64,000 bases of DNA from Streptomyces sp. NBC_00341 (lineage in GTDB: Bacteria > Actinomycetota > Actinomycetes > Streptomycetales > Streptomycetaceae): NCBI RefSeq assembly GCF_041435055.1, contig NZ_CP108002.1, forward strand, positions 4,898,001-4,962,000. Direction: 5' to 3'. Made by a program: the position numbers and the translations under genes. This document shows, piece after piece, positions 8,455 to 61,693 of this stretch. Below the pieces are notes generated by a model, which saw only the letters and a program-made list of their open reading frames with translations, was not told the origin of the DNA and did not search any database. Each line of letters starts with the position of its first letter. Positions within the stretch are counted from its first letter, which is position 1.

Positions 8455-8507
8455 CACGCGGGACAACGGGACAAAGGGGCAGTTGCCCGAGACCGAGCGA
8501 GACGTAC

Positions 8508-8533
8508 TGTCCGTTCCCAGTAGAAGTGAGCAG
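8508..8533 (+). repeat. Left terminal inverted repeat
   Basis: It starts TGTCCGTTCCCAG and ends GTGAGCAG. A second GAGCAG lies at 8547-8552 just after GATCTGA (8542-8548), giving a pattern of repeated TGAGCAG-like motifs that may be TniA binding sites. Confidence 0.8.
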
Positions 8534-8841
8534 ACGGACTTGATCTGAGCAGGGGCCTGTCATTTTCGCTGAGACGGTCTAGGGCGAAGGAGTCCCGGCG
8601 AAGTTGCGGGCACGTCTCTGATCTTCTGCTTCTCTCTCAGGCGTCCCGTGCGTTCTGACAGGCGACGGCAATCGTGACCTGGCCATATTCAGTTTTTCTG
8701 GGAAGGCGGCGTCCTTCCCGCGCCCCATCGAAAAGACGGACGGGGGACGTGGCGCATCCTGCTCGCTAACTTGAGCACCACGCCCGACTGCTCGAAGGCC
8801 GTGCGTGCCAGCTGGCGACGGACTGGAGTGTTGGGAACCTC
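8534..8841. other. Left-end region of the element, no gene seen
   Basis: Together with 8455-8507 outside the element, this makes a 387-base gap. I see the terminal repeat and the GATCTGAGCAG block, then no convincing open frame with a ribosome site. It probably contains further transposase sites and the promoter of the gene at 8842. Confidence 0.6.
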
Positions 8842-9861
8842 ATGCCGAGTTCCGTTCGTCTTCTCTACCTGAGCGGCCGCGGCTTCCAAGCCGGGCCCGA
8901 GTTGCGACGGAGGCACGCGTTGCGCCAACCCGTAGGCCGGTACGTCTACTGGTCCCAGCGACTTGTCAGAGAAGTGATCGACGACAACGGGGTCCGGCTG
9001 GACCCTCGCATCAAGCCTGCCCTCAATCTGGGCCTGCCGGGCAACGGCGTCAACCTCGCCGGCCGGGACCGGGAGAACACCACCTTCGACATCGCCGAGA
9101 AGCTCAAGAGGAGGCTCCGTAAGTCCATCATCACGGACTTCAGTGCTTCGACGTCCGGACGGCTCATCCAGGGAGCGGGCCAGGCAGAGGTGGCGGAGTT
9201 CCAGCGGTGGGGGTACCCACAGCACCGTCTCCAGCATCGGACAGCCGTGATCCACACGCAGACTGTCACGCAGGAGGGGCATCGCGTTGATCTCTGCTTG
9301 TTCGGGAGCCTGAAAAACCTGCGAGGCTTCAACGTTCCGGAGGACGACTCTATCGGTGGATGGACCTCGTCAGCCGCTCCGATGATCGAGGAGTTCATCG
9401 CGCTCCGGGGTGCAGAGGTGAGTGCCCGGACGGGACGCGCGTATCCACTGGATGGCGAGGCGCTTGCTGTGGAGATCCTCAAGGTCGCGCTGGCACAGGG
9501 AATTTATGCCAACCCGGTAGATCATGCGGGGCGTCCCGAGAGTCGCGCGTACACCTTGTTGGGGTTCGACGCGACGGAGTACGTCGCCCTCATCTACAAG
9601 GACGTAACACTCACACCGAGGCGGTGGAACTTCCAAGTTGAGCCGGAGATGGCCGGAGTCCGCCGCATCCTCATCGGGGCCCCGCTCTGGATGCGCACGA
9701 CACGCCAGGACACCATCCGGACCTACTACGGCGAGAACCGAGTGGTGATCCCACGCGTCTCGGGCACATCGAGCGCACCCGCGATTGCTCCCGCATCGAG
9801 AACGCCGGCGGGCCATGTCCTCCTTCAGCCCTCGCAGGACGAAGATCGTACGCAGGACTGA
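8842..9861 (+). CDS. Hypothetical protein, cargo gene 1
   Basis: This encodes 339 residues and is soluble. It begins MPSSVRLLYLSGRGF; the SVRLLYLS opening faintly recalls the SAVMC3_10250-type family of Streptomyces proteins, but this is from memory and weak. The middle region has several aromatic-rich strands (RTAVIHTQTVTQEGHRVDLC). The C-terminal 30 residues are Ser/Pro/Ala-rich and probably disordered. No catalytic motif is recognised. It is the first gene inside the left end of the element, alone on its strand before a convergent small gene. Confidence 0.6.
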   Translation: MPSSVRLLYLSGRGFQAGPELRRRHALRQPVGRYVYWSQRLVREVIDDNGVRLDPRIKPALNLGLPGNGVNLAGRDRENTTFDIAEKLKRRLRKSIITDFSASTSGRLIQGAGQAEVAEFQRWGYPQHRLQHRTAVIHTQTVTQEGHRVDLCLFGSLKNLRGFNVPEDDSIGGWTSSAAPMIEEFIALRGAEVSARTGRAYPLDGEALAVEILKVALAQGIYANPVDHAGRPESRAYTLLGFDATEYVALIYKDVTLTPRRWNFQVEPEMAGVRRILIGAPLWMRTTRQDTIRTYYGENRVVIPRVSGTSSAPAIAPASRTPAGHVLLQPSQDEDRTQD

Positions 9862-9934
9862 ATCGTCTCTCGTTCCCATCCCCACCATGACGACGGCCAC
9901 ACTCATTCAAAGTGATTCGTCCTACTCGGAGTTC

Positions 9935-10117
9935 TCAGTGGTAGGCACCGACGGCGGTTAGGTACAGGCTGGCTGCCGCGCCCACGGTGCTCCCGCCGAT
10001 CAGGAGAGCGGTGCCGGGGGTGGTGCCCTCGCGCCACGCGACGAACGCGGCCGCGCACCCGAGGTGGAGAGCGGCAGACAAGGCCAGGAGCAGGGCCAAG
10101 AGCTGCTGTTGAGTCAT
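9935..10117 (-). CDS. Small two-helix membrane protein
   Basis: This encodes 60 residues, nearly all within two hydrophobic helices (LLALLLALSAALHLGCAAAF and ALLIGGSTVGAAASLYLTAV) joined by AWREGTTPGT. The layout is typical of small inner-membrane proteins of Streptomyces. The ribosome site is weak, so confidence is moderate. It is divergent from the HTH-STAND gene at 10334 and could be a partner or simply a passenger. Confidence 0.55.
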   Translation of the reverse strand: MTQQQLLALLLALSAALHLGCAAAFVAWREGTTPGTALLIGGSTVGAAASLYLTAVGAYH

Positions 10118-10261
10118 CGAAAGGATCCAGTTCTCGGACGGTGGCCTCGCCGGGCCGCGGGCTTGGCTGAGACCTTGCCCGTCCGACAGCGTGTCCGGCG
10201 AGGTTCTGCGACGGATCGATCACTTCGCGCCCAGTGCGCCTTTACCGGTTGTTACGCTCCC

Positions 10262-10291
10262 GGGTGTCCGATGTCAGCCGATCGGACACCC
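10262..10291. promoter_or_regulatory. Perfect 11-bp dyad upstream of the HTH-STAND gene
   Basis: GGGTGTCCGAT and ATCGGACACCC flank eight bases, ending 42 bases before the start at 10334. It may be an operator for the N-terminal helix-turn-helix of the encoded protein or a leader hairpin. A TTGTTACGCT promoter-like stretch is immediately upstream. Confidence 0.45.
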
Positions 10292-10333
10292 AGGACGCCG
10301 GTCGGACCCAGGTGTTCGGTGAGGAGCGGATGC

Positions 10334-12682
10334 ATGGGTGACGTGTTAGCGGATCTCCGGCAGGTGGGGGAGTTCAAGCGCCGTGCGCTTCGCGACCGTC
10401 CGTCGAACCGAGAACTGGCGAGGCTGGCGGAAGTCGCCCCTGGTACGCCGGGCGCCTGGCTCGACGGTGCGAACCTGCCGCAGGACCTCGGGAAGCTGAT
10501 TGTCGTCCTCGAGGCGATCTGTGCGGAAGCCGCCCGCATAGGCGTCTTGGGCAGCCGCGTCGACGACTCCGGGAAGACCGCTGCTGAGCTGCTGGATCCC
10601 GGGCGTTGGCGCGCCGCCTTTGCCGAGGAGCGCGAGCGTCGGGCTGAGGACACCCGGTCGGCGGTCGAGCGTCAGCAGGCGCGAGCGGCCTTGGTGGAGG
10701 ACGAGCGCCGTGCCCGGCAGGCCGCGCTCGTGGACCGCCCGCGACCGGTCGGAGAGTGGACTGCTCAGCGGCTCGGTGTGCACCCTGCTATCCCAGGGCG
10801 CCCTGTCGGCGACGGCCTCCGCGACGGTGTCGACGGATCGGACTTCATCCTGCCTCGCTATGTGCTCCGCCCGCACGATGAGCGGCTGCGCGGCCTGCTG
10901 CGGGAGGCAGTGGCGACAGGGGCCCGGCCGAGCCTGATCGTGGTGGAGGGGGGCTCGTGCACAGGCAAGACTAGAACGGCCTTCGAGGGGTTGCGGGCGT
11001 CGGTACCGCCGAACGTCCTGCTGCTCTTCCCAGCGGACCCCGCCGGTCTGCTGGACGTTCTGGCCGCGGAGGCCCTCGAGCCGGGAAGCGTGCTGTGGCT
11101 CAACGAGGCCCAGGACTATCTCACCGGCCCGACAGGTGAGGCAGTTGCTGCGGCGCTTCTACGGCGGCTCGACGGCAAGGGACCTCTCGTGGTGGTCGCC
11201 ACGTTGTGGCCGGAACATCTCAAGACCCTGCGGGACGCTGGCCACGGTCACAGCACCGGCGGCGGATTCCGTGACAGCGGTCCCGATCAGAACCGGCTAT
11301 CTCGCGCGCTCCTCGCCCAGGCCACTTACGTCCATGTGCCCCGCACCTTTGCAGACGCCCTAGAGCTGGTCACGGAACTCGCCTGCCAGGACGGCTCGTT
11401 GGCGGCGGCCCTAGAGTCCGGCCACGCCGATCTGACCCAGACCCTAGCCGCCGCTCCGGATTTGGTCGACTTCTACGAGGTCCCCGTCGGCGAGGCGGGG
11501 ACCCACTGCAGGGCCATCCTCAGCGCCGCGATGGATGCCCACCGTCTCGGCGTCAGCGGACCGTTGCCGCTCGCCTTCCTAGAGGCCGCAGTTCCCGGCT
11601 ACCTAAATGACGACGAGAGGGCCGTCCATCCGGGGTGGTTCACCTGGGCGCTCGCCCACGCCCGTACCGTCGTCAAGCAGACCACTAGCCCGCTACAGGA
11701 TGTCGCCCGCCCTGGCCGGATGGGCGTTGTGCCCGGCGTGGTGCGCCTCGCCGACTACCTGCAGCAGCACGGTGATCGGACCCGCCGAACCGTCTGCCCG
11801 CCAGCCTCTTTCTGGGATGCAGCGGCCAAGCACCTCGCGGATGCCACAGACCTCCACCGCCTCGCCTACGCTGCCCAAGAGCGGGCGAGGCTGCGCCACG
11901 CCGGCGTCCTGTTCGCAGCCAGTGCGGACGCCGGAGACCCGTCCGCCCTTTTCGCACTCGCAGTTCGGATGGACCGGGCCGAAGACAACGAGATGGCGCA
12001 GAGGCTCCTTGAAGCCGCCGCAGCCGCGGGCGACGGACAGGCGGCGGGCGACCTGGCTTGGCGGGCAACAGAGATGGGGGAGCCCGCGAAAGCGGACCGG
12101 ATCCTGAGGGCCACCACTGATGCTGCGCGCCCGGACGCCTTGGCGAGGCTGGCACTCAGGCACGAGCTGTCCGGAGACCGAGTCCAAGCCAGGCGGCTTT
12201 ATCTGGCCGCAGCTGAGCTGGGAAGCGAGTCCGCGCGAAGGTACTTGGACTGGGAGAGAAAAAGGGAAACGGAACGGAACGCGGAGCGGCAGGAGGTTTT
12301 GGATTCCTCGCCTTCCAAAGCCGAGGACAGAGTCCCGCTCGTCCTGGAGGAAGTCGACTCCTATGTGCTAAGCCACAACAGGCCGGATTCCGCTCCGGTG
12401 ACCCGCTGGTTCCTGGAATATGGCAATCTGCACGAGCTGTTCGGGGATATGCACGAACGCCAAGGCAACCACGAGGAGGCTGAACGCCTGTATCGGGCAG
12501 CCGCCGGGTTGGGTAACTCCAGGGCTTTACGAAAACTGGCTGAGCAGGCGGCGGTTTTGGGGCACCGTGAGAAGACGGAGCGGCTGTACCTGGCGGCTAC
12601 TGAACTTGAATGGGTGATGTCGGGAACGGTGAGTGTGGTGGTGCCCGGGGGCGCTCCGTGGACGGCTGCTGAGTCAAGATGA
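10334..12682 (+). CDS. HTH-STAND NTPase with TPR/Sel1-like repeats
   Basis: This encodes 782 residues. Residues 24-60 (SNRELARLAEVAPGTPGAWL) look like an XRE-type helix-turn-helix, followed by a charged coiled-coil (about 90-135). The P-loop GGSCTGKT is at 206-213 and the Walker B-like VLWLNEAQ is near 253-260, where Asn replaces the usual Asp before the catalytic Glu. The C-terminal 250 residues hold helical repeats (AERLYRAAAGLGNSRAL type) of the TPR/Sel1 class. This is the plan of a signal-transducing STAND ATPase; relatives occur in phage-defence and regulatory loci. ATG 10334 is chosen as the start of the HTH. Two TTA codons (residues 5 and 732) predict dependence on the bldA tRNA. It is followed after four bases by the gene at 12687. 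Confidence 0.72.
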   Translation: MGDVLADLRQVGEFKRRALRDRPSNRELARLAEVAPGTPGAWLDGANLPQDLGKLIVVLEAICAEAARIGVLGSRVDDSGKTAAELLDPGRWRAAFAEERERRAEDTRSAVERQQARAALVEDERRARQAALVDRPRPVGEWTAQRLGVHPAIPGRPVGDGLRDGVDGSDFILPRYVLRPHDERLRGLLREAVATGARPSLIVVEGGSCTGKTRTAFEGLRASVPPNVLLLFPADPAGLLDVLAAEALEPGSVLWLNEAQDYLTGPTGEAVAAALLRRLDGKGPLVVVATLWPEHLKTLRDAGHGHSTGGGFRDSGPDQNRLSRALLAQATYVHVPRTFADALELVTELACQDGSLAAALESGHADLTQTLAAAPDLVDFYEVPVGEAGTHCRAILSAAMDAHRLGVSGPLPLAFLEAAVPGYLNDDERAVHPGWFTWALAHARTVVKQTTSPLQDVARPGRMGVVPGVVRLADYLQQHGDRTRRTVCPPASFWDAAAKHLADATDLHRLAYAAQERARLRHAGVLFAASADAGDPSALFALAVRMDRAEDNEMAQRLLEAAAAAGDGQAAGDLAWRATEMGEPAKADRILRATTDAARPDALARLALRHELSGDRVQARRLYLAAAELGSESARRYLDWERKRETERNAERQEVLDSSPSKAEDRVPLVLEEVDSYVLSHNRPDSAPVTRWFLEYGNLHELFGDMHERQGNHEEAERLYRAAAGLGNSRALRKLAEQAAVLGHREKTERLYLAATELEWVMSGTVSVVVPGGAPWTAAESR

Positions 12683-12686
12683 GCAC

Positions 12687-13181
12687 ATGAGCGAGGATGA
12701 AGCGGATCTGCTGGTGCTGCTGCGCGAGCTCGATGATCCGGAGTGGCTGGAGTGGCCGCAGCACTACGACCGCGGCGAGGCCGCAGCGCACTTCCGTGTC
12801 CTGGTAGCCCGGCTCGAGAGTGACTTCGCAGCTCGCTGCACGGCCGAGCGGGACACCCAGGACTCCAGCGAGTACGGACGCGTCGTCGTGCCCGGGGATG
12901 CAACCGTATGCGGTACTCGGATCGTCGTCTGTGTGAGCAAGTTCGGCTCGCTGGCTCTGGTCTGCGCCGACAACCCGGGCGCCTTCTTTGGAACGGCTGA
13001 CGCCCAGGCCGAGGGCGAGCTGGATGCCGCGGACCTTGCCAAGGTCAACCGGGCGCTTGTCGAGCTTGGCTATGTCGTGGTTGCTGAGGAACTACTGGAG
13101 AGCGACTATGACGGGCCGAGCCGACTGCCCTGGCACGTTCAGCGGCCCAGTTGGTCGGATCGCTTCTTCGGTATCTTCTGA
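12687..13181 (+). CDS. Hypothetical acidic protein, probable partner of the STAND gene
   Basis: This encodes 164 residues, acidic, with no signal or membrane segment. It starts MSEDEADLLVLLRELDDP, with a central beta-rich part (GTRIVVCVSKFGSLALVC) and ends WSDRFFGIF. It begins four bases after the STAND gene stop, so the two are probably cotranscribed. No domain is recognised; the size and acidity would suit an inhibitor or sensor, which is inference only. An IS630-type insertion begins within a few bases of its stop codon. Confidence 0.65.
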   Translation: MSEDEADLLVLLRELDDPEWLEWPQHYDRGEAAAHFRVLVARLESDFAARCTAERDTQDSSEYGRVVVPGDATVCGTRIVVCVSKFGSLALVCADNPGAFFGTADAQAEGELDAADLAKVNRALVELGYVVVAEELLESDYDGPSRLPWHVQRPSWSDRFFGIF

Positions 13182-13184
13182 TGA

Positions 13185-13799
13185 TCACGCCGACAGGGTC
13201 AGGCCGGCGCCGGCCAGGCATCCGTCGATCACCTCCGGCCTGTACTGCAGCATCTTGAGCTTGCGCTTCACAGCGCGGGTGACCTGGCCAAGGTCGGCGG
13301 CGGCCAGGTTGCCGATGTCGCGTTTGACCAGGGACCAGATGCCCTCCTGCGGGTTGAGGTCCGGGGCGTAAGTCGGCAGCTGAAATACGGTGAGCCATGA
13401 GGCGTTGGCCTCGAAGAACTCCCTCAGTGGCGCAACCAGGTGCATGCGTAGGTTGTCCCACACCAGCACAATCGGGCCGCCGAGCTGTGTATGGGCGCGG
13501 ATTACCAGGTCGCGGTAGTCCTTCCAGCCGAAGCCCTTGGGTTCGTTCTTGCGGCCCCGGTACTCACGGATCGCGTAGAACAAACGGGACCGCTCACCCG
13601 GCTTGTAGCAGGTCATCCCCGCCATGGATACTCGGCCCGAGCCCCGCCCGCGCACGCGGACGACCGGCGTGCTGCCCCTGCGGCCCCACGTCCTGGCACG
13701 CGGCGGTGTCATCGACTGGCCGGCCTCGTCCTCGAAGACCACCCAACCGCTGTTCGCCGCCGCGGTGCTCTTACCCGCGGCCACACCTCTCCTTTCCAC
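13185..13799 (-). CDS. IS630 transposase, catalytic part (orfB)
   Basis: This encodes 204 residues with the DDE core: Asp in VFEDEAGQS, Asp in VLVWDNLRMH, and Glu in LNPQEGIWSLVKRD. It overlaps orfA by 91 bases and is probably made by a -1 frameshift somewhere before the VFEDEAG strand, near the AAAGGAGAGG to CGGGTAAG stretch. The codons for WPRV and for KSTAAANSGW lie in different frames, consistent with that. All catalytic residues are present, so the element may be functional. Confidence 0.85.
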   Translation of the reverse strand: MERRGVAAGKSTAAANSGWVVFEDEAGQSMTPPRARTWGRRGSTPVVRVRGRGSGRVSMAGMTCYKPGERSRLFYAIREYRGRKNEPKGFGWKDYRDLVIRAHTQLGGPIVLVWDNLRMHLVAPLREFFEANASWLTVFQLPTYAPDLNPQEGIWSLVKRDIGNLAAADLGQVTRAVKRKLKMLQYRPEVIDGCLAGAGLTLSA

Positions 13800-14248
13800 A
13801 ACTCCACCGCGTCGTCGTCACGCTCGATAGCGCGCCGGGTCGGCTGCTGCCAGGACCAGCCATAGCGCCGCAGCAGTCGCCACGTGCCCTCCACGGTGTA
13901 CGAGACGTGGAACAGCCGGCCGATCACCGTCTTCACGCGGGCCAGCGTCCACCGCTGGTCGGCCCACCCGTGTGCCAGCGGACCGCAGTCCAACTCCCGC
14001 TCCAACCTGGCCATCTGCGCGTCAGATAGTCGGGGTCGGCCAGGTGATCCCTTGGAGGCCACTCCGGCGTGGCCGCCCTCGCGCCACTGGCGTCGCCAAC
14101 GCTCCACCGACCGTTCCGAGACCCGCAGCATGGCAGCGATCTCCCGGTTCTTCCGGTCAGCCTCGAAGCACGTCACGGCCTGGCGCCGGACCCGCTCTCG
14201 CGCGTCTCTCTCGACGTCGGTCAAGCCGCCGCCCTGCGGATATCTCAC
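13709..14248 (-). CDS. IS630 transposase, DNA-binding part (orfA)
   Basis: This encodes 179 residues. It starts MRYPQGGGLTDVERDAR, typical for the family. Two helix-turn-helix units follow: REIAAMLRVSERSVERWRRQ, then a winged segment with SPGRPRLSD and WTLARVKTVIGRLFHVSYT. The tail beyond the overlap (RRRTAVGWSSRTRPASR) is the out-of-frame read-through. Confidence 0.85.
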   Translation of the reverse strand: MRYPQGGGLTDVERDARERVRRQAVTCFEADRKNREIAAMLRVSERSVERWRRQWREGGHAGVASKGSPGRPRLSDAQMARLERELDCGPLAHGWADQRWTLARVKTVIGRLFHVSYTVEGTWRLLRRYGWSWQQPTRRAIERDDDAVELWKGEVWPRVRAPRRRTAVGWSSRTRPASR

Positions 14249-14288
14249 CGAACGAGGACTACCGAGGCCACTTTCACGCTGTCTGGCG

Positions 14289-14502
14289 AACAGCCCGACA
14301 TCACCCGATCAAGTTCAGTATCAACACCGGAGACGACCGGTGGCTCGACGTCCGTGACCTGGCCTCTTCCCGCAGGGAGCTGGTGGAGAGCTACGAGCGT
14401 TATGGCATTGAGGCCGACGGAACGCTGTCCGAGCCGTGGCCATGGCCCGTCCCGAGAGCAGTCGGTCCCACGGTCTCGATTGAACCCGAGGCTGAGACAT
14501 GA
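14289..14502 (+). pseudogene. 3' remnant of a gene cut by the IS630 insertion
   Basis: The plus frame ending at 14502 gives a natural-looking protein end (IKFSINTGDDRWLDVRDLA, then RRELVESYERYGIEADGTL). No start codon with a ribosome site precedes it, because the IS630 element occupies the upstream DNA. The similarity of style may extend back to about 14257. Its 5' part is not visible in the window, so the parent gene is unidentified. Confidence 0.55.
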
Positions 14503-14612
14503 GGTCGGTCTGGGTGACAGCAAGGACACGGGTGCCCTCCTGGCGGTGGTCGCGCCGGATCGCGTCGATCAGTCAAGTTTGAGAACCACCTCCAAACTCT
14601 CGGCGCGGTCAT

Positions 14613-15968
14613 GTGTTGCATCGCTACCGTGGCTGTGTGGCCACGAAGAACATGCCCGCAGCAGGCCAACCACTCGCGCCGATCTATCCGTACAACGAAC
14701 CGAGCCAGGCCGTCCTTCTGTACGACGGCCTGATCGGCGGGCTAGGAGCAACCGACGTTCCTGGCCGCGTCGAGTTGATCTGTTCAACCGGGTTCAACTT
14801 CGAGTGGAAGGTGGGAGATGGGGCATCTCCAGGCTTCGCGAACCGCGACGAGGTTGACCTGATTCTCCATCGTCCGATGGGCGACATGATCATGCCTGGG
14901 GTGCCGCGGAACATCGACGGAGGATGGTCGAACGGGGCCTCGTTCGGGAACCCCGGGGCCTCATTGAATCGACTCGTCGTTCATTGGTTCAACCTGCCCA
15001 ACTGGCATGGTCCGATGGGGCTGGTGGCGAGGACGGCCGACGGAGAGCCGGAGTGGTCAGGCCGTTGGGAGCATCAAACGAGCGGCTGGAAGATCACGCT
15101 AGATGTACGCCCCGACCATCAGAGGGTTTGGCGCGATCTCCACCAGGCTGATGTGTACGTGATGACGCACGTAATGGAGGTGCGTCGTACCGATGGCTCG
15201 CTCTTTACGCCCGACGAGGTAGATCCCGTGCTGACAGCGATGCACGTTGGGATCTCGTTCGCGCTCGGCCGATGGGCTGCTCCCATGCTGTCAGTTGGCG
15301 AGGACAGCGGCGGTCGCGGGGCGTGGGAGCAGTGGGGTGCCTCCCACTGTGACCCGGCGCGCAGGAGTAGTGATGGTTGGTGGTACGACCAAGATCACCA
15401 ATCGCTTGGCGACTTCTTGAGCCTTGTGATCGACGCCTTTGCGGACCCTGACCGACTCGTTACGCTGCGCTTTCAGATGATGTATGCCATCTCCGCCATG
15501 CGGAGCCGGGACTTTGTCGAGCCTCGAATCATCATGGGTACAGCTGGCCTGGAACACATCATGTGGGAACGTCTCGTCCTCAACGGCGTTTTGACCAAAC
15601 AGCAATACAAGCAACGCCCGGCACATCAGTTGCTGCGCGAAGTGCTGCTGAGTGCCCAGATCCCCGTTGACATCAACCCTCAGCTCCTGCCGGCGGCCGC
15701 ACAGTACGCTGCTGATGTAAAGATGATCGAGAACAAGGACATTGACGGTGCTGACGTCGTAACCTGGGTCAGGAATCGACTGGTGCATCCGCAAGAGGCG
15801 CAGGAGTCGGTTTACCGATTGGATGGCTTGACGAGAGATTCTTGGCTTCTCGCTCGCCATTACCTAGTGTTGTTGATCCTGAACTCACTAGGATACAACG
15901 GCAATTATAGAGACCTCACACGAATTCGGGGCTGGGTGGGCGACGTGGCTAACGTTCCCTGGGCATGA
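14613..15968 (+). CDS. Two-domain protein with C-terminal HEPN motif
   Basis: This encodes 451 residues. The N-terminal 250 residues are beta-rich with many aromatics (STGFNFEWKVGDG, WEHQTSGWKITLDV). The C-terminal 150 are helical and contain VTWVRNRLVHPQE, an Arg387-x4-His392 signature with Asn at the next position, as in HEPN ribonucleases. This layout recalls single-gene defence proteins of the ApeA type (domain plus HEPN), but no sequence identity is claimed. GTG 14613 is the longest start; GTG 14637 or ATG 14652 are alternatives. Base composition is lower in GC than the core genes (for example the stretch around 15840-15930), which supports acquisition. It stands alone in the cargo between IS630 and the tni operon. 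Confidence 0.62.
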   Translation: MLHRYRGCVATKNMPAAGQPLAPIYPYNEPSQAVLLYDGLIGGLGATDVPGRVELICSTGFNFEWKVGDGASPGFANRDEVDLILHRPMGDMIMPGVPRNIDGGWSNGASFGNPGASLNRLVVHWFNLPNWHGPMGLVARTADGEPEWSGRWEHQTSGWKITLDVRPDHQRVWRDLHQADVYVMTHVMEVRRTDGSLFTPDEVDPVLTAMHVGISFALGRWAAPMLSVGEDSGGRGAWEQWGASHCDPARRSSDGWWYDQDHQSLGDFLSLVIDAFADPDRLVTLRFQMMYAISAMRSRDFVEPRIIMGTAGLEHIMWERLVLNGVLTKQQYKQRPAHQLLREVLLSAQIPVDINPQLLPAAAQYAADVKMIENKDIDGADVVTWVRNRLVHPQEAQESVYRLDGLTRDSWLLARHYLVLLILNSLGYNGNYRDLTRIRGWVGDVANVPWA

Positions 15969-16101
15969 TCGGCGGATCTGGGGGTTCTGCGTCAGGTCTC
16001 CCGTGCGGCGCAATCCACGGCGGGTGTTGGGCGCTCGGCGTCATTTGTGCAGGTCGTCTCGGACGCTCCCTCGGGATTCGCCCGATGTATACGGGAGTTT
16101 A

Positions 16102-17082: not shown

Positions 17083-17085
17083 CGC

Positions 17086-18138: not shown

Positions 18139-18479
18139 AGACGGCTCCCGTCAGTGAAGGCGTCGAAGACACCGAAGGGGATGACGTTCGACGGCTGCTC
18201 CAGGACGGTGGTCTCGTCCTCGGCGTTGTCCGGAGCAGGTGCCTGCGGCAGCGCGGCGAAGGGACGAGAGGGCTCCAGGGCAACGCGTGTGCGGGCGGCG
18301 ATCCGGCGGTCCGGGCCGCTTTCCGCCCGGGTCAGCAACTGGTCTACCGCGGCCGCAACGGCGGCCTGATCGGTGTCGTCCCGGCCCCGCAGCGCGAGCA
18401 GGTCGCGGGCTCGGCGCCAGGTGAAGTCCGCGAACGGTGCGGAGACTAGGTGCGGTGTGTCCACGGGACAGTGATCCAC
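18135..18479 (-). CDS. Small protein between tniA and tniB
   Basis: This encodes 114 residues (or 109 from an in-frame GTG at 18464). It overlaps the 3' end of tniA by 34 bases and the tniB start by four. The first half is helical (WRRARDLLALRGRDDTDQAA, AVDQLLTRAESGPD); the second half is Pro/Ala-rich and ends IPFGVFDAFTDGSRL. Tn7 and Tn5053 have nothing at this position that I recognise. The tight overlaps argue that it is translated with the transposition proteins, perhaps as an adaptor linking TniA and TniB. Function is unknown. Confidence 0.65.
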   Translation of the reverse strand: MDHCPVDTPHLVSAPFADFTWRRARDLLALRGRDDTDQAAVAAAVDQLLTRAESGPDRRIAARTRVALEPSRPFAALPQAPAPDNAEDETTVLEQPSNVIPFGVFDAFTDGSRL

Positions 18480-20185
18480 TCACCGGTGCGTGCGTCGCGT
18501 ACCCAGACCTGGGACAGGTCGTAGGGGTCGTAGTGGACTTCCCAGAGCCCACCTTTGGCGGTCACTCCCGAGGAGCGGCGTCGTAGCGGGTTCAGCCCGG
18601 GGCAGTTGTAGGTGCGGTGGTCGACGCGGATGCCGTAGTCGTTGACCGAACGCCAGAGTGCCGGCAGCAGCTCCAGGTAGTCGGTGCCGCTCAGCGGCAT
18701 CGGCAGGTAGCCGGTGCGAGAGACCAGCAGGGCATATGCGTCGTTGGGAGACATGGGCTGGCCCGGTAGGAACGGGCTGCGCAGTCCTTCGTGTGGCCGT
18801 TGCTGCCAGCAGGCCACGATCCACTCCTGCAGCAGGTCGTCCAGTTCTGCGAGCGTCCAGACGGCCTCGACCTCAGCGCCCCGGCGGGTCGTGTTCGAAC
18901 CGGTGTAACCAGGAATGTGCTGGCAGAACAGCGTGTTGATCGAGGAAAATGTCCGCTCGACGATTCCCTTGTCGGTCGGGGTCGCCGGGCGGGACGGCTG
19001 GACGGAAACGCCCAGCGACCGGCAGGCGGCAAGGAAGGTGTTGGAGACGAACACCTTCCCGTGATCGATGCCGATAGTCTCTGGCACGATCACCGGCTTC
19101 GCGGCTGCCTGCTCCAGGCGCGCGTCGATCTCCAAGAGCCTCCGGTAAGGGATCACTGTCGTCGACATCGCCAGCGCGTCCGACCAGCCGGGCCGTAGAG
19201 GCTCCGGGACCAGCATCTTGGCCAGCAGCAAGGCGGCGTCCACGGACTTGGTGCCTGCCGGTCGCAGCACCGCAGCGCAGATCGTCCTCGTTGCTACGTC
19301 GACGGCGATCGTGAGTTCCGGGCGTCCACTCACCCCGTCCTCCAGGACCACCAGCACGTCCAGCGGTGTCGTATCGATCTGCACCATCTCGCCGGGGCGG
19401 CAGGCCGAGGAAGGGGTAAACGCTCCCTGCGGGCGGCGAGCCGCTGACCTGCGGGACGTAGCCTCGCCGAAGGCATGCGTGCCCTCGCTCATCGCCTCGA
19501 CGAGCCGGTAAAACGCCGACTTCGACGGCATCGCCACCGTTCCCCGGCCGTGGCGCTCAGCCAGCAGCGCCTCCACTCGCCGACGCAGTCGGCCGCGGGT
19601 GCCGGTGGACTCGTTCGTCGTCGCGGCCAAGATCTCCACGATGGCGGATACAACCCGGTCGTCGGCCCGCCCCGTCGGCGAGGACAACCGAGTCTTTCGG
19701 TGATCGACCAGCCCCCACAGCCCCTGCTCGCGGTAGCGCCTGCGCATCCGCTGAACGGTTCCCGTACTCGCCTGCCAGCCGATAGCACGCAGTTCCGCCA
19801 CTTTGGCCGCCACCCGCTCCTCCAGCGTGTGGCTGGCCGGGTCGTATTCAGGACGTGGCGGGATTGCGGGATCCGCGTCCAGAGGCTTGCCGAACTCCAC
19901 CTCGGTCACATGCCGTTCCCAGGCCACCGCCTTCTCCGCTTCCCGTGCCGGCACGATGTCCAACAGCGCGAACGGCGGCATACGCCCCTGATCGGCACCT
20001 TGGCCGATGAGTTCAAAGCCTTCCGAGGTCAGTAGATGCGACAACAACACCAGGCTCGCCGAACCGGCTTCGTCGAGGAGCCGCACCGTCGTCCCGGACA
20101 GGCCGATGACCGTCTGCAGCCGGTCATCCAGGTGCACCCGATCGCCGACCCTCAACGCCGCCCGTGGCCCTGGGCGCCCGTTCAC
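18446..20185 (-). CDS. tniA: TniA/TnsB-family DDE transposase
   Basis: This encodes 579 residues. After an N-terminal beta/HTH region and a second HTH (WQASTGTVQRMRRRYREQG), the integrase core carries Asp271 (MVQIDTTPLD), Asp374 (IGIDHGKVF) and Glu410 (DKGIVERTF), giving the proper D-D-35-E spacing. The Mu-type C-terminal beta-barrel follows (ITVPWTHRT end). It should bind the terminal repeats and carry out 3'-end joining. Its GTG start overlaps the tnsA-like stop by four bases. All catalytic residues are present, so the element could be active. Confidence 0.9.
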   Translation of the reverse strand: MNGRPGPRAALRVGDRVHLDDRLQTVIGLSGTTVRLLDEAGSASLVLLSHLLTSEGFELIGQGADQGRMPPFALLDIVPAREAEKAVAWERHVTEVEFGKPLDADPAIPPRPEYDPASHTLEERVAAKVAELRAIGWQASTGTVQRMRRRYREQGLWGLVDHRKTRLSSPTGRADDRVVSAIVEILAATTNESTGTRGRLRRRVEALLAERHGRGTVAMPSKSAFYRLVEAMSEGTHAFGEATSRRSAARRPQGAFTPSSACRPGEMVQIDTTPLDVLVVLEDGVSGRPELTIAVDVATRTICAAVLRPAGTKSVDAALLLAKMLVPEPLRPGWSDALAMSTTVIPYRRLLEIDARLEQAAAKPVIVPETIGIDHGKVFVSNTFLAACRSLGVSVQPSRPATPTDKGIVERTFSSINTLFCQHIPGYTGSNTTRRGAEVEAVWTLAELDDLLQEWIVACWQQRPHEGLRSPFLPGQPMSPNDAYALLVSRTGYLPMPLSGTDYLELLPALWRSVNDYGIRVDHRTYNCPGLNPLRRRSSGVTAKGGLWEVHYDPYDLSQVWVRDARTGEWITVPWTHRT

Positions 20186-20943
20186 AGGGCCTCCGGCCGA
20201 GACACCAGCGTGGCATCCGAAAGAGGCCGCGACAGGTCCGCTGTCAGCCGTCCCAGCCAGAGCAGATGGAACACCGTCGGCAACACCGCGATCGGATCAC
20301 CGAGCAATGCAGCCTGTAACACCAGCGGCGACGGCACCGAAAACAGCGCCAACAACCGGGTCACGACTCCCTCATCCGCTCCGTGCCGTGGATGCCGATA
20401 TCCCGCCAGCCAGCGGACGTTCGCCATCCGCACCGGATCCACCTCTCCGACAACCCGGTAGCCCCAACCCACTGCCTCGCACGCTGTCCGCGCCGCAGCG
20501 AACTTGGCTGCCGACCGTGCGTCGATCCGGTCCAGCGGTCGGCAGCCGACTACCAGCCCCCGTCCGTCCTCGAACCGAGCGAAGTAGTCCGGAGCGTGCG
20601 AGACCCGCTTGCCCCGCTCGTTCTCCCAGAACAGCCAGAACGGCTGCGATAGCAGCCCCATCACCTGCGGCGTGAAGTCGAGCAGCATCGCGTGATCCCG
20701 CTCCAGCCAGGACTCGAACCCCACGTGCCCACCGGTCGTCGCGGACCAGTACAAGCCCGGGAAGTGGCGCTGCCCGCGATACGACGGAAACCCCCGCACT
20801 GGCCGTCCCGCCTCGAACTCCACCGAGACTGCATCCGCCAACGGCCGCCGATGCTCACCCTCGTCATCCCGCCACCCGACCTCGAATCCGTCCAGTCTCG
20901 ACGGCGTTGCGCCTTCCAGCACACACAGCCCCACGGCGGCCAC
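20182..20943 (-). CDS. TnsA-like endonuclease subunit
   Basis: This encodes 253 residues. The central part HVGFESWLERDHAMLLDF, the SQPFWLFW strand and HAPDYFARFEDGRGLVVGCR follow the TnsA N-terminal nuclease pattern. That is a restriction-like fold in which an acidic residue, a second Asp and a Lys make the active site. Glu78 (or Glu81) and Asp119 are present. The lysine strand, usually V-K or V-R, reads VVGCRP here, so Arg135 would replace Lys. TnsA cuts the 5' ends so that the element moves by cut-and-paste. Its presence makes this a heteromeric Tn7-type rather than a Tn5053-type machine. GTG 20943 is the first usable start. Confidence 0.78.
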   Translation of the reverse strand: MAAVGLCVLEGATPSRLDGFEVGWRDDEGEHRRPLADAVSVEFEAGRPVRGFPSYRGQRHFPGLYWSATTGGHVGFESWLERDHAMLLDFTPQVMGLLSQPFWLFWENERGKRVSHAPDYFARFEDGRGLVVGCRPLDRIDARSAAKFAAARTACEAVGWGYRVVGEVDPVRMANVRWLAGYRHPRHGADEGVVTRLLALFSVPSPLVLQAALLGDPIAVLPTVFHLLWLGRLTADLSRPLSDATLVSRPEAL

Positions 20944-21070
20944 TGTGCAGTTCCATAGGAACTGAGGGGACCGAACGGGATCAAACCCATCATCCGAGTG
21001 AACATCTGCAGCACGGCGGCCAGCTCAGCGCTGTGGCAGTGAGGCCGCCCGGCCTCGGGGGGATGAAACG

Positions 21071-21691
21071 TCAGCCGGTGACCTGGTCCCGATGAAGCTG
21101 GGAGGGTAGAGCCGCGACGACCCAATGCAAGATTCCATCTCCGCGTTCACGGAGGTCCTTGATCGTCTTCTCAACCTCGGCCTTGGTGATGGTGAGAAGC
21201 GCCTCAGGCTTACGCCTCTTGCTGACCAAAGCCATGGTCTCGATCACGGGTTCGGGGGCCGCCTCGGCAGTACGGGCGTCGCCATCCCCGGCAATCGCGA
21301 TGAGGCCATGCACGAGGTTGTTCCGCGTGTTAAGCAGATCCTTCAGCCCTGACAGCAGCGCCAACCCTTCGGTTCGCTGGTCGCCGTTGATCTCCTTGTT
21401 CACCTTGAGCAGGACTGTGCAGGTGTCTATGAGATCGCCTGCGCTGAGGCCGGCTGCGACCAACTTCGCGTATCTGGAGTCCAGCAGCGCGACCATGAGC
21501 TGACGGAGGTGAAGTTCCACCAGAGCGCTGGCCTGTGCCGCCTGCCCGACAAGCGTGATCATGCCGTCGTATGCAGCGGCGCGGATCTTCTGCTGACGCT
21601 CGAACTCGTCGTGTCTCGCCTGTTCTTCTGCGTTCATGGCGGGAGCGTAACCAGGGCTCAAGGAACCGTGGGTGTTGGTCTTATCGCTCAC
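21071..21691 (-). CDS. HEPN-motif protein, third gene of the cargo operon
   Basis: This encodes 206 residues and is mostly helical. LLNTRNNLVHGLIAI holds Arg123-x4-His128 with Asn at the next position, the HEPN ribonuclease signature. The preceding long helices (ASALVELHLRQLMVALLDSR) fit the four-helix HEPN bundle. The start is GTG 21691, behind GGTGAGG and seven bases after the STAND gene stop; an ATG at 21709 would overlap that gene. The tight spacing shows cotranscription with the STAND NTPase and the membrane protein. I infer an RNase effector or toxin controlled by the NTPase. The gene ends 128 bases before the tnsA-like start. Confidence 0.68.
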   Translation of the reverse strand: MSDKTNTHGSLSPGYAPAMNAEEQARHDEFERQQKIRAAAYDGMITLVGQAAQASALVELHLRQLMVALLDSRYAKLVAAGLSAGDLIDTCTVLLKVNKEINGDQRTEGLALLSGLKDLLNTRNNLVHGLIAIAGDGDARTAEAAPEPVIETMALVSKRRKPEALLTITKAEVEKTIKDLRERGDGILHWVVAALPSQLHRDQVTG

Positions 21692-21698
21692 TCGGCCC

Positions 21699-24600
21699 TC
21701 ACCAATCACGGCCGTCCGGAGGGAGCTCGTCTGTCACGTCCTGTATGCGGTCCAGGGCAGATTCTGCGAGGTCGCGGTAGAACTCTTCCTCGACGCTTCC
21801 CTTGGCACATCCGTCGGCCAGATCAGTGGCCTTAGCGTGTTCCTCGACATCCTCAGGGTAGGGCTGGCCGGGCGTCCCGGAGCGCATTCCGCTGTTGCTG
21901 GCGTTATACAGAGCGACCCTCATTGTGTTCAGGCTGGTGTCTCCGTGGCGGTCCGCGGCGCGCAGGCAGCGGCGTACGAACCCGACGTCCCAGACGAGTG
22001 TCCGGGGGGCCTTGGAGAGCAGCGCCGCGGCGACCCTGATCTTCACGGGGTCGCTGTCGTCGAGATACTCGTCGATCACGTCAGTGACTTGACCGTTGTA
22101 GGGCCCAGCTACGAGCTCGAAGATGTTGACTCCCAGGTAGCGCCTGCGGGTGGACTCCGGGTCGGCGGCGATCCAGTCGCGAATCTGTCGCAGCAGGTGT
22201 GGGAAGTCATCGTGATTGCGGAACGGCGGGGTCACGTTCCAGCGGAAGGGCAGGGGGGAGTGCATGCCTGTCACTTGATGTAGTGGGCTTTCCACCCTGG
22301 CTTCGAGTAGTTCGATGACGGCGAGGGGCTCGGTGCGGGCGAGTTCTGCGAGGAACTGGCCGATCTCGTAGCCGTCGATGGACGGTGCCGCGACCAGGGC
22401 GGCGAGGAAGGCCCTCTGCTGGTCTTTGGGGAGATCCGACCAGGACAACTGACTGTACGGGGGACCAGCTACAGCCAGGGCGAACGCGTCGAAGTCCCCT
22501 CTCTCCACGGCGAGCGATGTGGTGAGCAGTTCGACAGCCAAGTCCTTGTGCTGCGCGGCGATGGCGTACACAGCCCCGAGAGCGGCCCTTCGTACGACGT
22601 TGTCCCCGTGAGCGACGAGTTCCCGGAGCAGGTCCCCCTCGCCATCCAGCAAGTCGCCGCGACCGCGCTGGTTACCAAAGGCGTGCGCCACTCCCTGGGT
22701 GAGTTCGGTGTTCCCCGAGCTCATGAGAACCCGGCCCCAGTGGACCGCGCGGTCGCCGGCGGCGTGCCCCAACGCAGTGAGAGCGACCGACGTCAGCGAC
22801 GTCAGAGAACTCCCGGGCGAGGCCATGGCCTGTTTGCAGATGGCTTCGCCGACGGGCGGGCGGTGGGTGACCAGCGTCAAGATAAATGGCCGGGCCCGTC
22901 CGATGTCCGTGCCGAAGACTCTGTCGTTCTCACTGAGCAAGGCATCGACACGCGAGGCGATCGCATTATCTGCCCAGTCGGCGAGAGTGGCCACCACGTC
23001 TCTGAACAGCGAGTCTTGCGCAGCACGCCAATCCAAGGGGCGGGAGTGGGGCGCGGGGTCGGCCGGTCCACCGTGCAGTGCGCGGGCGAGTTCATTGTCG
23101 GGTGCGGTAGGGATCGCGCTCAGGAGGTTCTCGGCGGGGCGGCGAAGGCTGCCGGGGCCGTGCTGTGCGAGCCAGCGCAGCTCGGTGCGGACGGAGACCA
23201 AGATCGCAGGTGGCAGGGTGTGCTGAACGATGTACCTGTGCAATCGGTCGATGGTGCTCGCGAGGTGCGGTAGCCAGGGCTGGCGCATGGCGTCCGTCAT
23301 GGTCAGCCCAAATCCGCCAAGTGGCAGGCTTAGGGCGTTGCCGATCAGGGAGCGGGCGGCCGAGGCGCGTTCGAGTTGCGGGTGTCCCAGCTCCTCGAAC
23401 GCCAGGTCCAGCACGGCGTCGCGCACCTTCAGAACCTCCCTGGCGGGGGGAATCACGTAAGAGCGGAAGGTCAGGGTCCACGAGGCGGGTGTCCAAACCT
23501 CGTCGTGACCCTCTGTGGCCAGCAAGGGGGCGAGCACGCTCAGTGGCTGGTGGACGGAAGGAGTGGCAGGTGCGCGTGTCAGCCAGCGTTCGACCTGGCT
23601 GATGAGTACCTCCTGGTACTTGGTGGGGCCCCAGCGGGTGTAGTCGGCCCGTTCCGCGAGAATCCGCAGAGGGTGCGAGGGATGTTGAGGCACGCCGCGT
23701 TGGTCGTCGCGCCCCAGGGTCCAAAGAAGGGTGGCTGCCTGCGGCAGGAAGTCCAGATGATGGGCGATGCCTTGGAGGACAGGGGCCAGGGCATAGCGCA
23801 CTTCTGTGTCAGTCCACGTGCGGCTGAATCCGAGCCCGACTTCTGCCGTGACGGGATTGCAGGGGTTGTCCACGGCCCACGAGACTAGGTCGAGGGCGCG
23901 TCGCGGTTGGAAGAAGGCGAGCTTCGCCACGACCTCCAGCAGGCTCACGCGCCCCCGTGCGTCCGCGCTGCGGAAGGCTCCCGTGATCTGCTCCCACAGG
24001 GGCTCGATCAGTCCGTCGGCGCCGGTGCCCTGTTGATGCTGTTGCCAATCCACACGGCCGGCGTTCACCACTAGGTTGGCCAGCGCGCTGCCCCGGCTGG
24101 CTTCCATGGCTCTGGCGAGGTAGCCCGTGGAGAGGCCTGTGCCTGAGTGCCGCGCTGCTTTCACGAGCAGGGCATCGCCCAACAGGTCCGGCACCAAGCG
24201 CACTGCGGTGCCGTGGCTCAGCGCCACCCCGGCATTCTCAAGGGTCGCCAAGTGCTGCGCGCAGAGATCGAAGGGCAAGCTGGTCAGGGCTTCAAGCGAT
24301 GTGCGGACCTCCGGGTCCGTGAGGCGCACAGGCTGGAACGCAGCGAGAGCGGAAAGCAGTTCCTGGGGTACCTGGCCTGAGGCCGGATCGGCGGTCAGAG
24401 CATCGGCGAGCCGGTCCGTGAGCTCCAAGTGGAGTTGCTCGTCGCCTTCGAATCTCTGCGGATCCAGGGCGCCGTTATTGATTAGCGCCGCACCAGTGAC
24501 GATCAGCAGCGGGCAATCCCGTGCCGCTGCGGCGAGCCTCGGTGCGTGGAGCTGTACCGTTTCGTCCAGAATCTCGCTGGCCAGGGAGATCGCGTCCTCG

Positions 24601-25352
24601 AACTCTAGGTCCCCAATCTCGACGACGGTGGTCTCGCTCACGTGCAGCCCCGCCCTGGCAAGCGCGCGGCGGGCATGAGCCATGCCGTAGGGGCGCATGG
24701 AGAGCAGCACGTTGGCAGAGGCGTTTACGCTAAGAACCCCGGAGACGACCTTTTCCAGAGGGAGAGTGTCGTCGTGTGCGTCGTCGACGATCACCAGCAG
24801 CTTGCCCGTGCTTGGCAGTTCCCTGAACGCGCCCGGACCGATGGTGGAATCAGGTCCGAGCACTCTTACTTCGACGGCAGGCTCTGCGTCACGCAGCGCT
24901 TCGCACAGGGCCGTCGCGATCTTCGTTTTCCCGACTCCGCCCCGGCCGACGAGGAGTGTGACGTGTCCTTGCTCGCTCCTGGCGAACGGTACAAGGCTGT
25001 CCATTGTCTGCGTGCGTCCGACGAGTTGCCAACGGTGCGTGTAGACGGAGCCCCTGTTTACCTGACGGAGGTAGTCGTCGGGTTTCATCCAGGGGTCCGG
25101 CTCCACGGTCCCGTGTACCAGCGTGTCGATGTACATGTAACCGGTATTGGCGATTCCGCCCTCGGCGGCAGTCGCTGGCCCTGTGTGCGACAGCTGTACA
25201 GGGGCCTGAGGAGTGTGGGCGGCTCCCGGAGCCGGTCCGCGATAGCCGGTTACGGCCGTGCCCTCGCTCGCGGCTTGGGCGTTGCCGGTGTCCGACACGG
25301 ATACTGATGGCTCGGTCGCCTCGTCCCGAGCTTTGCCTGATGCTTTCGCCAT
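21699..25352 (-). CDS. Giant STAND NTPase, central gene of the cargo operon
   Basis: This encodes 1217 residues. Residues 1-90 are Ala/Thr/Gly-rich and include IANTGYMYIDTLVHGTVEP, a linker style seen before NTPase modules. The VGR-type box LVGRTQTMDSL (110-120) precedes Walker A GRGGVGKT (136-143) and Walker B LLVIVDD (185-191), with a sensor-like SMRPYG further on. The remaining 850 residues are helical repeats without a named domain, as in sensor arms of Avs-type and other STAND proteins. Start ATG 25352 is chosen over a longer frame to 25595, which would run through the membrane-protein gene. No nuclease, TIR or protease domain is visible, so the effector is probably the HEPN partner. Confidence 0.75.
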   Translation of the reverse strand: MAKASGKARDEATEPSVSVSDTGNAQAASEGTAVTGYRGPAPGAAHTPQAPVQLSHTGPATAAEGGIANTGYMYIDTLVHGTVEPDPWMKPDDYLRQVNRGSVYTHRWQLVGRTQTMDSLVPFARSEQGHVTLLVGRGGVGKTKIATALCEALRDAEPAVEVRVLGPDSTIGPGAFRELPSTGKLLVIVDDAHDDTLPLEKVVSGVLSVNASANVLLSMRPYGMAHARRALARAGLHVSETTVVEIGDLEFEDAISLASEILDETVQLHAPRLAAAARDCPLLIVTGAALINNGALDPQRFEGDEQLHLELTDRLADALTADPASGQVPQELLSALAAFQPVRLTDPEVRTSLEALTSLPFDLCAQHLATLENAGVALSHGTAVRLVPDLLGDALLVKAARHSGTGLSTGYLARAMEASRGSALANLVVNAGRVDWQQHQQGTGADGLIEPLWEQITGAFRSADARGRVSLLEVVAKLAFFQPRRALDLVSWAVDNPCNPVTAEVGLGFSRTWTDTEVRYALAPVLQGIAHHLDFLPQAATLLWTLGRDDQRGVPQHPSHPLRILAERADYTRWGPTKYQEVLISQVERWLTRAPATPSVHQPLSVLAPLLATEGHDEVWTPASWTLTFRSYVIPPAREVLKVRDAVLDLAFEELGHPQLERASAARSLIGNALSLPLGGFGLTMTDAMRQPWLPHLASTIDRLHRYIVQHTLPPAILVSVRTELRWLAQHGPGSLRRPAENLLSAIPTAPDNELARALHGGPADPAPHSRPLDWRAAQDSLFRDVVATLADWADNAIASRVDALLSENDRVFGTDIGRARPFILTLVTHRPPVGEAICKQAMASPGSSLTSLTSVALTALGHAAGDRAVHWGRVLMSSGNTELTQGVAHAFGNQRGRGDLLDGEGDLLRELVAHGDNVVRRAALGAVYAIAAQHKDLAVELLTTSLAVERGDFDAFALAVAGPPYSQLSWSDLPKDQQRAFLAALVAAPSIDGYEIGQFLAELARTEPLAVIELLEARVESPLHQVTGMHSPLPFRWNVTPPFRNHDDFPHLLRQIRDWIAADPESTRRRYLGVNIFELVAGPYNGQVTDVIDEYLDDSDPVKIRVAAALLSKAPRTLVWDVGFVRRCLRAADRHGDTSLNTMRVALYNASNSGMRSGTPGQPYPEDVEEHAKATDLADGCAKGSVEEEFYRDLAESALDRIQDVTDELPPDGRDW

Positions 25353-25365
25353 CGGTGCGCGGGTC

Positions 25366-25701
25366 CTAGTTCGAGTAGTCGATGCCAGAGACGGAGTTCT
25401 CGCCGCTGGCTTCGCCAGTGCGCTCAGCTGTGGCCGCGCCACGCCCCCGGCCGCCCGGTCGTCTGATGCCGGTGACGCCGCCGCTAGTCGCCTTCCCAGT
25501 CCGGCTGGCCCTGTCCGTGGGGCCGGCCGGGGACGGGTGCTGGAACAGAGCCCAAACCAGGGCCACGATGCCGATGGCGGCTTGGATGGAGGCACCCACC
25601 AGCGCTCCCGTGTCGGGGCTGTTCAGCAGCCAGAACAGTGGAGTGGAAACGATCCCCACCACTGCTAGCACGATGACTGTGATCTTTCGGCCCAGCGTCA
25701 T
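25366..25701 (-). CDS. Two-helix membrane protein, first gene of the cargo operon
   Basis: This encodes 111 residues. Two hydrophobic helices (ITVIVLAVVGIVSTPLFWLL and LVGASIQAAIGIVALVWALF) are separated by NSPDTGA. A cytosolic Arg/Gly-rich tail ending NSVSGIDYSN follows. ATG 25701 has a strong ribosome site (GGGAGGA, six bases upstream). Its stop is 13 bases before the STAND start, so the two are one operon. A small membrane protein leading a STAND gene could anchor the complex or act as a membrane effector; this is inference. Confidence 0.75.
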   Translation of the reverse strand: MTLGRKITVIVLAVVGIVSTPLFWLLNSPDTGALVGASIQAAIGIVALVWALFQHPSPAGPTDRASRTGKATSGGVTGIRRPGGRGRGAATAERTGEASGENSVSGIDYSN

Positions 25702-26003
25702 GCGGGTCCTCCCAGTGTGCTGCCAGGACGGCGACCCGCCCATTTGCATGATCTCGCCACGTGTTCGTCTGCCATAAGGAACGCGCTCTGTAGCCCCTGT
25801 GGTTCCTGGGCTCCTCGCACGGCGTCAGCATTGCTGACGCCGCACAGTGATGCGTGAACCTCCTTGAGTGCCAAGCCGTACCAGCCCAACCTTCCTGCAC
25901 TTGCGACAGGTGGGCTGACCCGTGCAAGCGGGATCCGTTGCTAGATGAGCAGCACTGCAGTTTTGGTGGGACTTGATCACACTGTTGATCAGATCCAGAG
26001 GGA
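25702..26003. other. Promoter and right-end region of the element
   Basis: This 300-base stretch has no convincing gene. It must contain the promoter of the cargo operon. A copy of AGATGAGCAG at 25943-25952 is the inverted partner of 26004-26013 in the right terminal repeat, and GATCTGA (minus strand) sits at 25989-25995. These repeats look like additional TniA sites. Confidence 0.55.
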
Positions 26004-26029
26004 CTGCTCATCTTTGCTGGGAACGGACA
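26004..26029 (-). repeat. Right terminal inverted repeat
   Basis: On the minus strand it reads TGTCCGTTCCCAG and ends ATGAGCAG, matching the left end at 22 of 26 positions. It marks the outer limit of the element. Confidence 0.8.
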
Positions 26030-26074
26030 CCTATCGTGCTCAGGCTCACACACCCGTACGAGTGGTTCGGAACA

Positions 26075-26100
26075 CTTTTGCAAGCGGGTGCTTGCAAAAG
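26075..26100. promoter_or_regulatory. Perfect dyad CTTTTGCAAG-N6-CTTGCAAAAG
   Basis: Two perfect 10-base arms flank CGGGTG, 27 bases before the XRE gene start. This is a strong candidate autoregulatory operator of that regulator. The element's right end is only 45 bases away, so the insertion has replaced everything upstream of this site. Confidence 0.6.
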
Positions 26101-61689: not shown

Positions 61690-61693
61690 CAAC

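Follow-up and report, generated by a model that had tools for sequence, protein, structure and literature searches.

A Tn7-like transposon family of Streptomyces and its probable attachment site, the palindrome that precedes a core XRE-type regulator gene

How a Tn7-like transposon selects its landing site, and what becomes of that site after repeated use, is the question raised by a 17.5-kb unit at positions 8508..26029 of a 64,000-nucleotide stretch (the window) of the Streptomyces sp. NBC_00341 chromosome. A first-pass annotation had delimited the unit and left its target and history open. The answer proposed here is that it belongs to a Tn7-like Streptomyces family whose attachment site is probably the palindrome upstream of the core gene for an XRE-type regulator; the target would be a fixed site measured from that dyad, and older elements flank the copy on both sides. 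Genomes and loci are denoted by our G and L numbers, and the features on which the argument depends are as follows.

8508..8667, forward strand: left end (LE), tip TGTCCGTTCCCAG, GATCTGA at bases 35-41
25870..26029, reverse strand: right end (RE), target-proximal, GATCTGA at bases 35-41
26075..26100, no strand: dyad CTTTTGCAAGC...GCTTGCAAAAG, the putative target, TGCAAGC from base 50 past the RE tip
26128..26583, forward strand: core XRE-type regulator gene (HTH_3, Pfam)
20182..20943, reverse strand: tnsA (NF033179 TnsA_like_Actin, 305 bits; also PF08722)
18446..20185, reverse strand: tniA, TnsB-like (rve, Mu-transpos_C; by profile), frame broken near the 3' end
18135..18479, reverse strand: severed C-terminus of TniA, about 105 aa, in another frame (from the ORFs of relatives)
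17086..18138, reverse strand: tniB, TnsC-like (AAA_22, TniB; by profile)
16102..17082, reverse strand: tniQ, 326 aa (by profile)

The boundaries are set by terminal 26-mers that agree at 22 of 26 positions on direct reading (LE tip 8508, forward strand, TGTCCGTTCCCAGTAGAAGTGAGCAG; RE tip 26029, reverse strand, TGTCCGTTCCCAGCAAAGATGAGCAG), against a best chance match to the left 26-mer of 18 of 26 in 60 first-order random 64-kb sequences. An exact 13-mer of the tips is found in the organism's own 9.06-Mb genome in just the two end copies. The tips are of the TGT...ACA type, and internal repeats within the ends were read by eye. Re-reading and re-measurement upheld the inverted ends of the first-pass annotation, its GATCTGA at bases 35-41 of both, the 45 bases between the RE tip and the dyad arm at 26075 and the absence of a 5-bp target-site duplication, the flanks being CGTAC and CCTAT. 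Profiles likewise confirmed each of tnsA, tniA, tniB and tniQ, with Mu-transpos_C over the cut-off in TniA and rve slightly under it. The annotation's full operon, in which an "orf" followed tniA, is in fact interrupted: what was taken for an "orf" encodes the C-terminus of TniA, since 13 of 13 relatives read TniA through this part without a change of frame, and its candidacy as an independent target selector was dropped. TnsA has a Gly in place of an Asp that is kept in 14 of 14 of the other sequences aligned, two residues before a conserved Arg-Pro, a position that we take to be a metal ligand of the PD-(D/E)xK fold. The element can thus be called complete in its boundaries, as had been claimed, but not in its machinery, with tniA split between frames and the TnsA Asp lost.

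Of 295 genus genomes searched with TniA, 144 had homologues (E<=1e-30), and wide regions around them were compared for a chosen subset of genomes. The nearest relatives, termed F1, have tips TGTCCGTTCCC, the genes tnsA-tniA-tniB-tniQ and a TniA that is about 80-94% identical where tniA survives; in S. antnestii and G531 the right tip is one mismatch from the F1 motif. Tip positions were first fixed by the motif, and the flanks were examined for duplications in a second step. Perfect 5-bp duplications enclose seven F1 elements at the dyad (G003, G067, G096, S. antnestii, SirexAA-E, S. laculatispora and G531), and also a second, off-site F1 copy in G096. The window, G100 and G486 have no such duplication and S. 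composti matches at four of five bases. Decay is frequent: S. laculatispora keeps tniQ alone, S. antnestii has tniB in two pieces, and tnsA/tniA are partial in G531 and G486. Searches for F1-type TniQ were positive in 6 of 392 genomes at the level of the genus and in 7 of 391 at that of the order (overlapping sets, one genus).

The XRE region was matched in 150 of 150 genus genomes, our own included, and the dyad, a palindrome TTGCAAGC-N4-GCTTGCAA, lies upstream of the XRE-type gene within three mismatches in 157 of 157. In ten of ten genomes the perfect-arm dyad is single-copy, a reversed-pattern control giving 0, and genus-wide conservation of the DNA spans the dyad and the beginning of the XRE coding sequence. 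The left-hand neighbour DNA was also tried as a genus-wide anchor and failed, matching in 35 of 150 genomes (own included) and lying megabases from the XRE gene in those compared (G124, G009 and G066). The RE faces the dyad in 11 of 11 F1 elements located there, at 45-51 bp from its tip to TGCAAGC (window 50, G003 51, G067 50, G096 50, S. antnestii 47, SirexAA-E 47, S. laculatispora 50, G100 49, a MAG 45, G486 50, G531 50); ten of these are direct reads and that of G531 was obtained by counting out a later insertion. Attachment is thus specific in both site and orientation, as in Tn7-like elements. The MAG contig (L268, Streptosporangiaceae, possibly misbinned) has the dyad but no XRE gene. 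Outside this set of 11 stand S. phyllanthi (RE off the contig), G559 (a fragment at a contig start), G204 (decayed, with no right tip found) and the off-site elements of S. composti and G096.

A census of 157 genomes, covering 400 bp in front of the XRE gene, gave 17 matches to the F1 tip core at <=2 mismatches, 16 of them at 91-98 bp from the start codon, and one match on the opposite strand of the same regions. The genomes were our own (G000), 149 sampled and seven added as carriers of TniA relatives; the added seven account for none of the 16 F1 sites and for three of the 41 genomes with any tip described below, and G148 had just about 160 bp upstream of the XRE gene to scan. An earlier census that allowed three mismatches had given 27 F1 matches, 20 at 95-99 bp, and the threshold was tightened because two of the 20 (G025 and G094) look on inspection like another family, F2. 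F1-type TniQ is present in five of the 16 genomes with an F1 tip at the site (G000, G003, G067, G096 and G100) and was not found at E<=1e-40 in the other 11, in which the end alone has been left as a scar. G204 has decayed F1 genes about 5 kb from the XRE gene and no F1 right tip (<=1 mismatch) at the site.

The same dyad is used by elements with other ends. F2 elements have tips TGTGACTGAGCACG, a TniA about 30% identical to that of F1 and a distance to the dyad of 30-31 bp; they were delimited in G082 (14,121 bp, duplication CCTCC), G124 (17,189 bp, duplication GGTGC) and G531 (between the F1 RE and the dyad, duplication TCACC on both sides), and in all three the operon is reversed relative to F1, with tnsA dyad-distal. 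F2-like tips in the census lie at 77-80 bp from the XRE start in 17 of 20 cases. The sequence CCTATCGTGCTCAGG, at one stage taken for the unoccupied site, proved to be an F2 family tip. F3 elements have tips TGACCTGTCTC, a TniA about 50% identical and the orientation of F1, at 48 (G230), 53 (G049) and 60 bp (G021) from the dyad; their ends were found with the duplication as a search criterion, and the F3 duplication is therefore not independent evidence. An F1, F2 or F3 tip occurs at the site in 41 of 157 genomes, or 38 of the 150 not chosen for TniA relatives. As judged from these sequences the dyad is a hub for elements of at least three end families, of which one has reversed polarity.

More distant relatives were seen elsewhere. 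Five loci (L095, L102, L103, L108 and L110) have tips TGTCCTGTCGC or TGTCCCGTC and a TniA about 59-65% identical; none has the dyad at F1 spacing, and several have F2-like TGACA sequences within about 70 bp of the RE, as if these elements inserted beside the ends of another transposon family. In G025, elements with the same tips lie on two contigs, C1 and C3 (L095, L110), one of them the large contig and the other 145,945 bases long. In few-contig genomes several TniA homologues also lie near chromosome ends, apparently both, as in G154, G108, G151, G066 and G228 (lengths to 0.1 Mb), examples picked by eye which suggest a sub-family living at, or targeting, sites near Streptomyces telomeres.

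Repeated use of the dyad bears directly on the history of the window copy, on either side of which an older relic is preserved.

26030..26048, forward strand: relic of an F2 end, terminal 19 bp, tip at 26048, joined directly to the RE tip
7403..8507, forward strand: relic of an older element, comprising a phosphotransferase-family (APH) gene and the inner part of an F3-type RE

The tip of the F2 relic, at 26048, is 31 bp from TGCAAGC, which is F2's own distance, and a join of the same kind is found in G110. On the left, the inner part of the F3-type right end (8485-8507) is severed exactly at the LE tip, with about 135 bp of the older end missing up to that point; in G075, G486 and G108 the left-flank sequence continues beyond the F3 tip and enters an F1 RE, and in G486 the phosphotransferase-family gene is cargo within a decayed F1 element at the dyad. 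The empty site, with 8507 joined to 26030, was sought by comparison with G075, which gave no clean empty site and itself holds relics of older elements. The position of the window copy between an F2 tip relic and an F3-type end relic explains its missing duplication. Similar layering is seen in S. laculatispora, where F1 elements stand in tandem, the LE of one lying 5 bp away from the RE of an older copy, and, with the order of F1 and F2 reversed, in G531, where F2 came later and 25 bp separate its distal tip from the F1 RE, the gap predicted by 50 - 30 + 5. Since the dyad survives each insertion and is used by F2 and F3 as well, successive elements accumulate there and interrupt one another.

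The loss on the left may have been an adjacent deletion made by the LE tip or the outcome of recombination between tandem copies. That the two ends come from separate F1 copies which homologous recombination brought together, a reading that concerns the history only, is quite possible, if somewhat short of an even chance: tandem F1 ends do exist, as in S. laculatispora, and relatives with about 91% identity to it in operon DNA have ends unlike those of the window copy. The two ends nevertheless match each other at 22 of 26 positions, and a loss that stops exactly at the LE tip is directly explained by a deletion made by that tip; the TnsA change, moreover, would fit replicative, deletion-forming events.

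In the mechanism preferred here TniQ would read the palindrome, TniB would bridge the roughly 50 bp, and TniA with TnsA would excise the element and join it with the RE toward the palindrome, making the 5-bp duplication seen in relatives and leaving the regulator gene and the dyad intact. The near-fixed distance, the fixed direction, the duplication in relatives, the intact dyad and gene and the repeated use are all read directly from the sequence. The spacing is a range rather than a single value (45-51 bp in F1, 48-60 bp in F3), and that of F1 resembles the 50-60 bp given for CAST elements in the available text of PMC8649781.

An important consideration is whether copies away from the site retain anything of the dyad. 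The second F1 copy of G096 is identical over 7,330 bp and lies, with duplication TGGGC, in an unrelated ORF that by eye we take to encode a SWIM-type zinc finger protein; no XRE gene is present there. Fifty bases from its RE lies TGCAAGCAT, a near-copy by chance, where 24 bases match the G096 dyad at 17 of 24 in exact register, other registers within 20 bases reaching at most 12. Over 80,006 positions (both strands, two G096 loci) 17 of 24 was reached at three, namely this site and the two strands of the true dyad. The S. composti tip and a unit in G108, both off-site, showed no dyad-like sequence, with 8-10 of 24 positions matching at the expected places. One of three off-site F1 copies thus adjoins a dyad-like sequence in register, and the motif reading has a single recent and exact case in its favour, set against two that are silent.

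What recognises the dyad is open to other interpretations. The transposon machinery might find the host XRE protein bound at its operator, with TniQ contacting the protein and not the DNA. The dyad, which separate transposon lineages share as a site, does resemble an XRE-gene operator, and neither Pfam nor the TniQ model (mean pLDDT 78; weak likeness to known TniQ, best 8bd5 chain Q, E 0.9) gave a DNA-binding domain or a convincing DNA-binding fold. This route is nonetheless unlikely: both the contact and dyad binding by the XRE protein would be conjectural, the off-site copy adjoins a degraded palindrome, and an XRE-type HTH is among the domains carried by TniQ proteins (PMC11406308, available text), so that direct reading by TniQ is the known route. 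The broader form of the idea, in which several Tn7-like lineages would separately home to one regulator's operator with the host's XRE protein as target selector, each lineage's bridge setting its spacing (30 or 50 bp) and polarity, is similarly doubtful.

TnsD as a rule recognises gene sequence, and the target might accordingly be the beginning of the XRE coding sequence, which TniQ would read much as TnsD reads glmS, with the dyad a bystander. The conservation of the DNA between dyad and coding start would agree with this, as would the nearly constant 91-98 bp from start codon to F1 tips, and on-site copies alone cannot separate the dyad from coding sequence because the distance between dyad and start codon is itself nearly constant. 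Attachment sites next to conserved genes are also known (PMC11406308, available text). A coding target is improbable, however, in view of the second G096 copy, which has the dyad-like sequence in register and no XRE gene, and of F2, which with reversed polarity holds 30-31 bp from the same dyad.

The window copy itself is probably no longer mobile, on the grounds of the tniA frame break and the loss of the TnsA Asp; relatives exist with these genes open, all four being so in SirexAA-E. That both changes are sequencing errors in an active element is very unlikely, for although there is a single assembly and the tniB and tniQ frames are open, the two departures are separate and depart from an Asp kept in 14 of 14 TnsA and a tniA in one frame in 13 of 13 relatives.

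Between the ends lie about 12.7 kb of DNA besides the transposition genes, arranged as follows.

8842..15968, forward strand: LE-side cargo, whole block (ORFs, Pfam)
8842-9861, forward strand: cargo ORF with a 78% relative in L111
10064-12682, forward strand: cargo ORF with a 34% relative in L096
12633-13181 and 14613-15968, forward strand: further LE-side cargo ORFs
13185-14248, reverse strand: DDE_3 transposase in two overlapping frames, inside the LE-side cargo (Pfam)
21071..25749, reverse strand: RE-side cargo (21071-21709, 21699-25595, 25366-25749)

The DDE_3 transposase is, by family traits, presumably IS630-like, and the product of 21699-25595 has a weak nSTAND_NTPase5 match under the curated cut-off. 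The relatives of 8842-9861 and 10064-12682 sit in loci with F3-like operons (L111 and L096), and cargo seems to move between end families. Against eight relatives the homology of the window element consists of the operon, over 4.8 kb in seven of them and over 1.05 kb in S. laculatispora, together with 73 bp of the LE that are 73% identical in G067. A central operon with cargo on both sides, as first described, does hold for the window, with 7.6 kb on the LE side, but not as a general layout: in the relatives measured the LE lies about 180-200 bp past tniQ, and in G067 it is about 200 bp beyond tniQ, with tnsA about 1 kb from the RE. Elsewhere in the window are an msiK cis-regulatory RNA (60477-60535, reverse strand) and a tRNA-Thr gene (61616-61690, forward strand).

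Judged by gene content the window element is a Tn7-like transposon, and judged by its TnsA it is of the actinobacterial type; profiles gave a TnsB-type DDE protein with Mu C-terminal domain, TnsA, an AAA+ TniB and TniQ. It resembles Tn7 (TnsABC with TnsD at glmS) in having TnsA, a DDE TnsB-like protein, an AAA+ protein and TniQ, and in the 5-bp duplication of its relatives. As in Tn7, the right end is the one near the fixed site and the recognised sequence is offset from the joint and kept intact. Such an offset is described for Tn7-like elements in general (PMC11406308, available text). It differs from Tn7 in that the site is a palindrome upstream of a regulator gene rather than the end of glmS, and from the TnsD of dual-locus systems in that TniQ has 326 aa as against the usual >400 aa (PMC10293859, available text). 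It shares tniA, tniB and tniQ type genes with Tn5053/Tn402 (tniABQ) and differs from them in having TnsA. No resolvase family (tniR) was found by Pfam among 19 scanned ORFs, a part of those of the element; Pfam gave no Cas families in the scanned ORFs and PADLOC gave TniQ alone, which does not make a CRISPR-associated transposon.

Through its NF033179 TnsA the element probably belongs to the Actinobacteria-dominated Tn7-like clade of Benler et al. (2021), no member of which had been characterised experimentally according to the available text (PMC8649781), and the main text of that study, as available, mentions neither XRE nor Streptomyces and gives no XRE attachment site. An XRE gene is likewise unnamed as a Tn7-like attachment site in the available parts of Faure (2023), Benler (2021) and a 2024 review, the last of which treats Xre proteins as regulators of I-F3 elements and as a TniQ-carried domain and nothing more (PMC11406308). 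No description of a landing site at an XRE-gene palindrome was found in the open-licence literature, so far as its available text extends. This is a known kind of transposon with an unusual target logic, namely a palindrome before a regulator gene, used by several families in two polarities. The actinobacterial Tn7-like branch thereby gains a concrete, testable attachment site that is a single-copy palindrome as opposed to the end of a housekeeping gene, and one site shared by three or more end families, one of them reversed, offers a natural comparison for how spacing and direction are set. The finding explains an accretion island in Streptomyces and provides a candidate fixed landing site for this antibiotic-producing genus.
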